Shown one piece after another: positions 19,856 through 57,114 of a stretch of DNA of 64,000 nucleotides. The notes under the pieces were generated by a model. The model saw only the letters and a list, made by a program, of their open reading frames with translations. It was not told where the DNA came from and ran no database searches. This DNA comes from Lebetimonas sp. JH292 (GTDB lineage: Bacteria; Campylobacterota; Campylobacteria; Campylobacterales; Nautiliaceae). How positions within the stretch are numbered: position 1 is the first letter of the stretch; each line of letters begins with the position of its first letter. Made by a program: the position numbers and the translations under genes. The stretch covers positions 124,001 to 188,000 of the forward strand of contig NZ_ATHQ01000001.1 in the NCBI RefSeq assembly GCF_000523275.1, in the 5' to 3' direction.

Positions 19856-21786
19856 TAAACAGTTTTATAAATCCCTTCTTTTTTTATATATTCAATCAAA
19901 TTTTTATAAGTTTTATTTATTCTTAATGTTTTAGCATCACCTATTATAACAAGTTTTCTTTTAGCCCGTGTTATTGATACATTCAGTCTTCTTATATCCT
20001 TTAAAAACCCGATTTCTTCATTTTCATTTGCCCTAACAAGACTTAAAATAATTATTTCTTTTTCCCTGCCCTGAAAACCGTCCACAGATTTCACTTCAAC
20101 TGAGTTTTTCATTATTTTTTTTATATATTCTTCATGGTCTTTATAAGGGGTAATTACTCCGATATATTCTTCTTTAGCCCCGTTTTTTATTAATTTTTCA
20201 ACTATTTTTTTTACATACTCGGCTTCAAGTGGATTATATTTTGAAAAACTTCCGCTTTTTGATTTTTCTATAAATTTTCCTTTTGTATCTATAAAAACAA
20301 TTGGCGTGTATCCTCCATAAATTTCATCTTCTAAAATTCCTAAATCTTTAATTGTTATATTTTTAATTTTTTCATATGTTTTTACCCTGCATTCATAAAA
20401 CTCACAGCTTACAAAATCATTTATTTTTTCATTCATTCTGTATTGAATACCCAGGGTATAATAAATATTTTTATATAAATATGTAAATCTTTCAAAAAGT
20501 GAAACCATAAGTCTTGTATCATTGCTCAAAATTGTTGGAGGCAACTGTTTATGGTCACCCGCAAAAACAGCTTGCTTTGCTTTTATTAAAGGAATCAGCG
20601 TTGATGGCTCCATTGCCTGAGCTGCTTCGTCTATAAAAACAACATCAAATTCTTTTGTTTCCAAAAATTCGCCGCCAGCCCCTGAATTGGTTGCAAAAAT
20701 AATATCTACATTATCTAAAATATCATTCATAATAGTTTCTATTTTTTTATTTTTTTCATCATAAAGTTTATTTATATTTTTTTGCAATTTCAGCCATTCT
20801 GCCATTTCTTTTATCCACTCGGCCTTAATACCTCTTTTTGCTTTTCCTTCTTTTGCTAATTGTAAAATCTCCTCATCGCTCATCCCTCTTCTTCTACCGG
20901 GAGTCGGTTTTTTGCATCTTTTTTCCTGCATATGTTTTAAATCATCTATTTTTTTATTAATTTTTTCAATTTCTTTATATCTTTTATCCCTTCTTATTCT
21001 TACATCCAGAGAAAATTTCATAAGTTTGGAATCAATTTTTGCAGGATGACCGATTCTTACAATATTAAATTCCTCCAGTTTTTCCATAACATTATCAACC
21101 GCCACGTTACTGTCTGCCGTAACTAAAATTCTTTTTCCTATGTGCTTTTTTATAACTTCAGCCAAAGTGGTGGTTTTTCCTGTTCCCGGAGGACCGTGAA
21201 TTAAAAAAACATCTGAGTTAATACACTTTCTAAGAGCAGCATTTTGACTTTCATTTAAAATATCGCTTCTTTCATCAACTTCAATAATTTCCGGGGCTTT
21301 TTTACCTAACAATACATCAATACAATTTTTCATTTTACATTTTCCATTTTTCATTTCATCTAACGCTTTTATCATTCTTTTAAATGTAATATCATTAACA
21401 TACAAATCAAGTCTGTATAATTTACTTCTGAATATTGCTTCTTTTGAATAAACTTCTATAAAATTTTTGCCAACACTGCTAACGGTTGCTTCTTTGGAAA
21501 ATTTTAAAGGCTCCCCCCTGCTCACTAATACAATATCCCCTACTTTAATTTGGTGTTCGGGCATATTATTTCTGTTGAACATGTATATTTTAAAATCTAA
21601 AAACTCTCCTATATATTTCATTTTAAGCCCGAGCAGTGCCCTGCCTTTTTTTTGTCTCTCTTGTGGCGTTAGTTTTTTTATTTCATTTAAATAAAATTCT
21701 TTTTCTGCTTTTCTTTCTTTTTCAATTAACTCACTAAAATATTTTTTATACTCTTCAATATTTTCAAATTTATACATTATTTTCAT
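19822..21786 (-). CDS. SF1 DNA/RNA helicase, SMUBP-2/HCS1-like
   Basis: A 654-residue superfamily 1B helicase: N-terminal beta-barrel region, Walker [10 protein letters not shown] at 198-206, Walker [13 protein letters not shown] near 390, [28 protein letters not shown] and [14 protein letters not shown]. It belongs to the UPF1/IGHMBP2 group. Two oddities: residues 144-155 ([12 protein letters not shown]) are encoded by a 7-bp tandem array, and the last 12 codons overlap the damaged tpx on the other strand, so the natural stop was probably lost in the same deletion. Confidence 0.88.
21331..21358. repeat. heptamer tandem array inside the SF1 helicase gene
   Basis: Four consecutive units CATTTTA, CATTTTC, CATTTTT, CATTTCA. 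The reverse complement contains AATGGAAAATGTAAAATG, identical to the array at 4439. The frame is kept. Confidence 0.65.
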
Positions 21787-41890: not shown

Positions 41891-41924
41891 TTTCTTCCTT
41901 TATTATCAATATTTTCTATTCACA

Positions 41925-41979
41925 ACTCACCACCCCGCCTCTTTGCAAGCGGCCGGACAGGCTCACCACTCACTATTTT
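41925..41979. repeat. GC-rich palindromic element, copy A
   Basis: ACTCACCACCCCGCCTCTTT, then GCAAGCGGCCGGACAGGCTC, closing with ACCACTCACTATT. About 50 of 55 bases match 43551-43605. It lies between pheA and hisC and partly overlaps the pheA stop. Both edges carry 7-bp repeats (ATTCACA/ACTCACC; GCTCACC/ACTCACT). Confidence 0.75.
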
Positions 41980-43039: not shown

Positions 43040-43599
43040 AATTCTTTCCTTTTTAAAAATTCTCCAATATTTTCGGCTATAAAATCCACTTTTTGACTTA
43101 TTTCATCTGACTTTTTAATTTTACCGCTTAAAACCAAAGCCGTTTTCATACCAAGTTTACCGGCCGGCAATAAATCTCCTATTAAATCATCACTAATTAT
43201 GGTAATTTTATCATAATTTAAAGAAATTTTAATTCTTGCAGCTTCAAAAAAATTTAAACTTGGTTTTCCAACAACCTCATAATTTTTGTTTATGGTATAT
43301 TTCAGCATTTCCAAAATTGCCCCGAGTCCCGGATAACGCTTATTGTTTTTACGGTAAAGTGAAGTTTTATGCATTCCTATTAAATTGGCCCCTCTTATCA
43401 AATATTCAATAATATCTGCAATTTCATCTGAAGAATAGACTTTTATTCCCAAAATTACATTATCAGGATTATCAAAATCAATTTTAAAATTTTTTTTCAT
43501 TATTTTAACAAATTCACTGTTACCAAAAGGAGCAATACTGCCGTTTATAAACTCACAACCCCGCCGCTTTGCAAGCGGCCGGGCAGGCTCACAACTCAC
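43030..43599 (-). pseudogene. HAD-family phosphatase with 5' end replaced by a repeat
   Basis: The open frame gives 189 residues from a GTG. The first 17 (SCEPARPLAKRRGCEF) are encoded by the GC-rich element 43551-43605. From INGSIAPFGNSEFVKIMKKN the sequence is a HAD-IIA phosphatase: late motifs are present (VVGKPSLNFFEAA with the Lys; TIISDDLIGDLLPAGKLGMK), but the N-terminal DxDxT nucleophile motif is missing. The normal enzyme is about 250 residues, so about 60 are lost and activity is unlikely. Its position between lysA and pheA matches the HAD gene of Campylobacter. Confidence 0.75.
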
Positions 43600-43611
43600 T
43601 ATTCACTATTT
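43551..43611. repeat. GC-rich palindromic element, copy B, with heptamer edge
   Basis: ACTCACAACCCCGCCGCTTT, then GCAAGCGGCCGGGCAGGCTC. It contains the hairpin CCGCTT-TGC-AAGCGG. The right edge is a 7-bp tandem GCTCACA, ACTCACT, ATTCACT. It matches copy A at 41925-41979 and forms the first codons of the HAD open frame. Confidence 0.75.
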
Positions 43612-55779: not shown

Positions 55780-56351
55780 TTGTAAAAATAACCCTTACAC
55801 TTTTTTTAATAATGGATCCATTTGGCAATTTACCGGTTTTAATATCTTTATTAAAAAATTATGATAAAAAAACAAAAATTAAAATTCTTATAAGAGAATT
55901 ATTAATATCACTCTTTTTAATTTTTATTTTCATATTATTTGGAAAGCAAATTTTAGAGCTTTTTGGACTCAGTGAAGCGTCTGTTTCAATTGCAGGCGGA
56001 ATAATTTTATTCTTAATAGCATTAAAAATGATTTTTCCATCAAATGAAACAGAAAATACGGATAAAACCGATTTATTAATAGTACCGATTGCCATTCCAA
56101 TGATTGCCGGGCCGTCACTGCTTGCCGTTCTTTTATTGTTATCAAACAGTTACAATTTTCATATTTTATTTACTGCTTCTATCATCTCATGGGCTTTAAC
56201 ATCATTTATAATTATATTTTTTACCTATTTGGCTGAATTTATTCCATATAAATTTTTCAATGCTGCAGAAAAACTTATGGGAATGTTGTTAATCGCCCTT
56301 TCAGTTCAAATGTTACTTGATGGAATAGCTAATTATCTACATTTAAAATAA
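55776..56351 (+). CDS. MarC-family integral membrane protein
   Basis: A 191-residue protein with six hydrophobic segments: ITLTLFLIMDPFGNLPVLIS (the family's DPFGN-P motif), VSIAGGIILFLIALKMIFPS and PIAIPMIAGPSLLAVLLLLS. MarC/UPF0056 proteins have no established transport substrate. Start overlaps the preceding remnant by 4 bases; the end overlaps prmC on the other strand. Confidence 0.88.
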   Translation: MIVKITLTLFLIMDPFGNLPVLISLLKNYDKKTKIKILIRELLISLFLIFIFILFGKQILELFGLSEASVSIAGGIILFLIALKMIFPSNETENTDKTDLLIVPIAIPMIAGPSLLAVLLLLSNSYNFHILFTASIISWALTSFIIIFFTYLAEFIPYKFFNAAEKLMGMLLIALSVQMLLDGIANYLHLK

Positions 56352-57114
56352 TTTCAACTCCTCTTATATTTCCAGCTAAATCTTTAAAAAATTCAAACTT
56401 TTTTATCCCTTTTTCTTCTAAAAATTTGCTTAAAATCTCTTTTTGATTATACCCTATCTCAATTATAGCATAAGGAATTTTAAATTCAATTGCCTTATTA
56501 ATAAGTTTTTTTACAATATCAAGCCCATCACTCCCACCATAAAATGCCTCATCAGGTTCAAATTTATTTGGTTTAGGATAAGAATTTTCCACATACGGAG
56601 GATTAGCAATAAGTAAATCGGCTTTTTCATTAAATAAATCACATTTTTTAAACTCAATTTCTACATTATGTAGCTTTGCATTTTTTTTAGCAACTTCAAT
56701 GGCAATTTTATTTATATCAGTTGCTATCACTTCAGCCCATGTGTGTTTTTTAATCTCAATTGCAATTACCCCGCTTCCCGTGCAACAGTCAATAACTTGG
56801 AACTTGGTACTTGGTACTCGGTGCTTGGCAACTTGGCAACTTTTTATTAGTTCAATTGCCCTATCAACCACAACTTCCGTATCATCCCTTGAAATTAAAA
56901 CCCCCTCACTGATATAAAATTTATCTCCGTAAAAATAAACCTCTTCAAAAATATATTCAATCGGATACCCATTTTTTACTTTTTTCTGAATTTCAAAAAA
57001 TTCTTCTGGTACTTTCAAATCATCATTCAAAAAAAGCCATGCTTTATCTTTGTTTAAAAGTTTTTCTAAAATATAAACACTCTCAGGAAATTTTATAACA
57101 TCTTTAATCCTCAA
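56329..57114 (-). CDS. prmC: release factor glutamine methyltransferase, with repeat insertion
   Basis: Methylates the GGQ glutamine of release factors. The 261 residues show the N-terminal helical domain, the SAM loop CCTGSGVIAIEI and the catalytic NPPYVENSYP. Between ELIK and DCCTGSG lies SCQVAKHRVPSTKFQVI, encoded by a tandem array of 7-bp units (56795-56837). Relatives have about 3-6 residues here. The frame is kept and all motifs remain, so the enzyme may still work. It overlaps the YhiN-like gene by 11 bases. Confidence 0.88.
   Translation of the reverse strand: MRIKDVIKFPESVYILEKLLNKDKAWLFLNDDLKVPEEFFEIQKKVKNGYPIEYIFEEVYFYGDKFYISEGVLISRDDTEVVVDRAIELIKSCQVAKHRVPSTKFQVIDCCTGSGVIAIEIKKHTWAEVIATDINKIAIEVAKKNAKLHNVEIEFKKCDLFNEKADLLIANPPYVENSYPKPNKFEPDEAFYGGSDGLDIVKKLINKAIEFKIPYAIIEIGYNQKEILSKFLEEKGIKKFEFFKDLAGNIRGVEIILNVDN
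56795..56837. repeat. heptamer tandem array inside prmC
   Basis: Units ACTTGGA, ACTTGGT, ACTTGGT, ACTCGGT, GCTTGGC and (after one extra A) ACTTGGC. It lies in frame within the coding region, just before the SAM-binding loop. Confidence 0.75.

Follow-up and report, generated by a model that had tools for sequence, protein, structure and literature searches.

Imperfect heptamer arrays within a predicted loop of PrmC and in other core enzymes of Nautiliaceae

The window analysed here, a stretch of 64,000 nucleotides from Lebetimonas sp. JH292, contains two housekeeping genes in which short runs of imperfect 7-base repeats lie within the reading frame: prmC and a gene for an IGHMBP2-family helicase (Table 1). 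The organism belongs to the Nautiliaceae, a family of hydrothermal-vent bacteria. The identity of prmC is supported by the PrmC/HemK model TIGR00536, whose cut-off is exceeded, and by TIGR03534 (3.4e-57), where 193.8 bits is just short of the 199.1 cut-off. The nearest solved structure is Thermotoga maritima HemK (1sg9; phmmer, 2e-31), and PrmC matches were found in 56 of 60 related genomes. The product has an N-terminal helical domain, the catalytic motif NPPY and the glycine loop of motif I, DCCTGSG.

Table 1. Features of the two array-bearing genes in the window
Feature	Coordinates	Strand	Details
prmC (peptide chain release factor N5-glutamine methyltransferase)	56332..57114	-	261 aa, TTG start
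Heptamer array in prmC	56794..56842 (end about)	-	coding-strand unit CAAGTNC; five 7-base and two 8-base units
7-base units of the prmC array	56794, 56801, 56808, 56815, 56822	+	AACTTGG, AACTTGG, TACTTGG, TACTCGG, TGCTTGG
8-base units of the prmC array	56829, 56837	+	CAACTTGG, CAACTT(TT)
DNA for strand beta-1 and SAM-binding motif I (VIDCCTGSGV)	56767..56796	-	from alignment; overlaps last bases of array
IGHMBP2-family (Upf1-like) helicase gene	19894..21786	-	TIGR00376, 637.7 bits
Second in-frame heptamer array of the window, in the helicase gene	21325..21356	-	AAAATGN type; TRF, period-7 scan, orthologs

The prmC array is a 49-base direct repeat (TRF score 54) with a G+C content of 49%, compared to 29% for the window. 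Sixty order-3 Markov copies of the window yielded one period-7 segment of equal strength and none that was comparably G+C-rich. The array encodes residues about 93-107 (CQVAKHRVPSTKFQV), which run into strand beta-1 directly before DCCTGSG; the segment is 9 residues longer than in T. maritima HemK. A preliminary description of this DNA had reported six ACTTGGN-type units at 56782-56845; the array is real, but it is slightly smaller and consists of five heptamers and two octamers. The same description held that the insertion keeps the frame and the catalytic motifs and that the array stands immediately before the SAM-binding loop, and both statements agree with the open reading frame, the intact NPPY and DCCTGSG motifs and the motif I DNA that directly follows.

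An AlphaFold2 model built from an alignment of the window PrmC and 11 relatives has a mean pLDDT of 91.4 and sets the array-encoded segment between a helix (residues 79-96) and a strand (residues 106-110). Residues 99-101 are the sole reported stretch of at least three residues with a pLDDT below 50, and the loop has the lowest internal confidence of the model; it is thus predicted to be flexible. The exposed loop that had been expected from structure prediction is found as a loop between these two elements, and its predicted flexibility together with the fold suggests that it is also exposed.

PrmC orthologs were compared between fixed anchors in 14 Nautiliaceae genes, with the nearest relative among the genomes compared being 72% identical. 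The anchor-to-anchor segment ranges from 7 to 32 residues and varies in sequence too; it measures 12 residues in five genomes and seven in G009, and the loop is short in genomes of other families. Heptamers occur at the same codon position clearly in nine of the 14 orthologs (identity at shift 7 of 0.61 to 0.83) and weakly in two (G012 and G017, with a value of 0.55 that is hardly over the 0.50 of short loops). The units themselves differ: CAAGTNC in this genome, AAATTGA/AAATGGA in G001, AAAGTGN in G003, G005 and G008, a mixture of AAAATGN and AAAGTGN in G007 and G020, AAAATGG in G006, and a long mixed array in G002. G015 has a long loop with no clear period, and the loops of G009 and G004 are short. 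In the orthologs read, no array interrupts the reading frame. Since the majority of relatives have an array in this position, the PrmC site is old and the unit type changed here; judged from the ortholog sequences, the loop appears to be an old tolerant site at which units have been replaced, even between this genome and its nearest relative. Variation in length and sequence, with a short segment in other families, is what had been anticipated for such an alignment; in place of conservation across the order, position is kept within one family and sequence is not. The proposal that arrays expand into essential genes survives in that the loop tolerates an array, but not as a new expansion in this genome, since relatives carry the same site. 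A second PrmC loop, before the strand that leads to NPPY, is up to about 40 residues longer in G006 (L027) and G009 (L029), both of genus g2, and has no obvious heptamers there.

Three further genes with arrays, those for RNase HII, the IGHMBP2-family helicase and CmoB, were followed through the family; they were picked since one genome had an array, a choice that does not affect the remaining genomes, and unit classes were assigned by eye from ortholog sequences. The RNase HII site, after AGPxVxAG, holds CAAGTTC in G003, AAAGTGN in this genome (G000), G007, G008 and G020, AAAATGG in G002, G011 and G015, AATTGAG in G005 and G018, and a drifting array in G001; eight other genomes have no array. 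The helicase array of the window lies at a first site, which holds AAAATGN/AAAATTG types and at which relatives carry other units. The site spans 19 residues, and neither the register nor the length of its arrays changes from genus to genus, a constancy that a single old insertion followed by substitution would give equally well. At a second helicase site, AAAGTGN occurs in G005 and G007, CAAGTTC in G015 and reversed units with an 8-base step in G008; G003 has an irregular run there that is related to the last. CmoB has CAAGTTC in G000 and G015 and other units in other genomes. Unit class is scattered on a helicase and CmoB tree, whose deep nodes are weakly supported, and sisters differ (this genome and G001; G005 and G008 at RNase HII). 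In-frame AAAGTGN arrays translate as K-V-[NAA]-S-[GNA]-K-[TGN], and the TGN codon in open genes is TGT or TGG, as is needed for the frame to stay open.

Arrays were also seen in other genes. In a gene of this genome that we take to be truB from our own reading of its sequence (about 1093850 on C1; the 3' half matched no family), the two halves lie in different frames at a CAAGTNC array, and it may be a broken gene, a switchable gene or an error of sequencing or assembly near a run of eight A. BioA (L046 1196-2869, - strand) has an insert of roughly 60 residues in which heptamer arrays flank a stretch encoding LCSSGYLKSCHDE that resembles palindromes adjoining intergenic arrays. The murE gene of G015 (L078) has an in-frame array of AAAATGG type and a second, also in frame, in which CAAGTTC is read in reverse (TWNLDLGTWN).

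These arrays belong to a larger population. A 464-kb sample (the window plus 20 spaced 20-kb stretches) holds 53 period-7 segments scoring at least 15. A Markov control gave 2, and 400 kb of the control genome G028, which belongs to another family, gave 1. For periods that are not multiples of 7, counts are near the control-genome level, and a 21-base superperiod was rejected since at period 21 the excess over the control genome is not clear (23 vs 13). AAARTG arrays number 161 against 15 for the reversed pattern, and the pooled unit over arrays is [AG][AT][AG]A[AG]T[GTA]. Intergenic DNA is preferred, though many arrays stand in frame within housekeeping genes. By simple ORF picks, coding sequence makes up about 85% of bases but only 18 of the 53 arrays overlap an ORF, and the purine-rich strand is sense in 13 of these 18. 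Over the first 640 kb, almost every array has its purine-rich strand on minus; a replication-strand effect was set aside as inseparable from gene direction, because genes and GC skew run the same way. Unit similarity within arrays drops with distance (5.1, 4.4, 3.9 and 3.6 matches of 7), the value at distance 1 being inflated by a scan that selects for neighbour similarity. Among 397 genomes of the phylum, 8 of the 9 Nautiliaceae have an AAAATGG array, as does 1 genome outside the family; the repeat population is nearly confined to Nautiliaceae within Campylobacterota as sampled.

CAAGTNC arrays at unlinked loci of this genome have a common leader, AGT[AT]GCCAAGTTCC, with an 8-base first step. 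The leader AGTWGCCAAG occurs 12 times at nine places in the 464 kb, with none in the reversed control and none in G028, and it also stands in a gene of G019, of another genus, which from our own reading of the sequence is presumably UbiD-like. Several composite arrays pass from GTGAGTN to CCAAGTN and then to AAAGTGN or AAAATGG, in similar order at separate loci. The common leader and this order suggest that sequence is copied between arrays besides growing locally, so that the expansion first proposed would cover only part of the process. No reverse transcriptase (RVT_1) match was found in this genome, and no inverted repeats were found around three composite arrays at the settings used. Viral contigs gave no match to the CAAGTTC leader and two matches to AAAATGG arrays. 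This genome and 17 of 20 relatives in the family have a Y1_Tnp match, as do families that lack arrays; a comparison of five family genomes showed one and the same gene downstream of Y1. In this genome (C1:926000-929500, L228), the Y1 transposase-like gene is closely preceded by a self-complementary heptamer array. The G+C-rich palindrome GCCCGGCCGCTTGCAAAGCGGCGGGGTT adjoins GTGAGTTGTGAG heptamers at 43557-43606 and 41919-41973 on the - strand of the window, and near-identical copies of it stand beside arrays elsewhere in the genome.

Taken together, the array and its frame, the predicted loop, the genome-wide population, its restriction to one family and the occupation of the same sites by different units are best explained by a dispersed Nautiliaceae heptamer population that grows in 7-base steps, is copied between sites and is tolerated in disordered loops when its length is a multiple of three; we put the probability of this reading at about two in three. 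An array would grow by slippage, or by unequal exchange among adjacent units, while its units drift; copying of array sequence between unlinked sites would account for the unit types and leaders (AGTAGCCAAGTTCCAAGT) shared by arrays throughout the genome. We infer neutrality for arrays that have no obvious function and are in the majority intergenic. Within genes, survival would require that an array encode a disordered loop, have a total length divisible by three and contain no unit that introduces a stop codon. The PrmC loop before strand beta-1 would have been occupied since early in the family, and CAAGTNC units would have replaced an earlier array in the lineage of this genome.

Much of this pattern could also arise by slippage alone, with 7-base duplications at each site and a likeness among units that reflects base composition and a polymerase's preferred 7-base step. 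That account is possible, although we consider it unlikely. It suits the decay of unit similarity within arrays and the missing reverse transcriptase match, and in many bacteria the long simple repeats found most often have 7-base units, for which an interaction with the polymerase has been proposed as the cause (Mrazek 2007, in the account given by PMC4679880). It does not readily explain why the leader with its 8-base step recurs at unlinked loci and in another genus, why composite arrays show similar unit-type order at separate loci, or why CAAGTNC units are about half G+C in so A+T-rich a window. It seems improbable that a RAYT-like tyrosine (Y1) transposase, present as a single copy, moves the arrays together with the palindromes that adjoin some of them. 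The Y1 gene is widespread in the family with a constant downstream neighbour, has the self-complementary array upstream of it in this genome, and heptamers flank palindromes such as GCCCGGCCGCTTGCAAAGCGGCGGGG; but the same kind of protein occurs in other families without arrays, G009 has Y1 with few arrays, G019 has arrays with no Y1 match (in an assembly that is 70% complete), and G005, G008 and G013 have no array upstream of the gene. Of REP/RAYT features, a Y1 gene and palindromes beside some arrays are present, while the prmC array has no palindrome. Neither a Y1 transposase nor a reverse transcriptase is established as the agent. We give a low probability to a dedicated Nautiliaceae process that would write or rewrite arrays of the pooled unit at set sites, with orthologous loops repeatedly erased and refilled with the unit that the genome favours at the time.

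Two further readings concern the gene product. PrmC is important for normal translation termination, as for hemK/prmC of Escherichia coli, so switching it off should be costly; this counts against a contingency locus in which a one-unit change shifts the frame and the array switches or tunes PrmC. The out-of-frame truB in the assembly of this genome, the sole such gene seen, would fit such a role, which is nevertheless very improbable given the open PrmC frames in orthologs, the imperfect units, which should slip less, and affected genes with no bias to surface antigens. An ordinary lysine-rich loop under protein-level selection, with heptamers as a by-product of codon use, is barely credible and already largely refuted. 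In its favour, many genera agree in the position and approximate length of the segment, as with the 12-residue PrmC segment of five genomes and the 19 residues of the first helicase site. However, the peptides are wholly different (CQVAKHRVPSTKFQV, NKLKIENGKLK and NEKCKVKSEKYK), the same units occur between genes and in reverse at one helicase loop and in MurE, and the segment is missing in other families and predicted to be flexible.

Repeat units not divisible by three are expected to be absent from essential genes; the PrmC, RNase HII, CmoB and helicase loops carry heptamers across much of the family, and unit type shifts between sister species. These loops provide a natural series for studying the origin and spread of heptamer arrays and the way protein structure filters them. 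They also caution that a loop peptide such as NEKCKVKSEK may reflect a DNA repeat instead of what the protein does. With closely related isolates, the unexplained abundance of 7-base repeats in bacteria becomes testable.

Several known repeat systems resemble these arrays in part. Rickettsia palindromic elements are dispersed and lie in frame in housekeeping genes whose products tolerate the extra peptide; they are palindromes, whereas the arrays here are tandem heptamers and no palindrome was found at the prmC array. Cyanobacterial STRR heptanucleotide repeats are likewise short, degenerate heptamer arrays dispersed in the genome, known from intergenic DNA, and we know of no report that they recurrently occupy protein loops. 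The open-access literature yielded no description of such arrays in Nautiliales and no report of arrays with changing units at the same internal loops of core enzymes. Heptamer tandem repeats as such are known; that they repeatedly occupy internal loops of core enzymes, with one unit type exchanged for another, is undescribed as far as could be found. The prmC array qualifies as a heptanucleotide tandem repeat (LSSR), its tandem 7-base units exceeding what chance would give. In most genomes surveyed by Mrazek (2007, as described in PMC4679880), heptanucleotide arrays outnumber every other kind of long simple repeat, and the present arrays resemble them in being 7-base tandem arrays, far over expectation and lineage-specific. 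In that survey, as PMC4679880 relates it, the units of repeats in coding regions are mostly divisible by three in length; here, it is the total length that keeps the heptamers in frame, and they sit in internal loops of core enzymes and have imperfect, drifting units. The TAACTGA repeats of marine Beggiatoaceae, with 169 sets in one draft genome, are also mostly intergenic, taxonomically patchy and unexplained in origin (PMC4679880). Identity with them was rejected, as the units here are CAAGTNC, AAARTGN, GTGAGTN and others. TAACTGA has stops in all frames in one direction and is therefore mostly found at protein ends (PMC4679880). It is one fixed unit, whereas the Nautiliaceae arrays comprise many interchangeable, stop-free units that lie in frame in internal loops, with other units in the orthologous loops.
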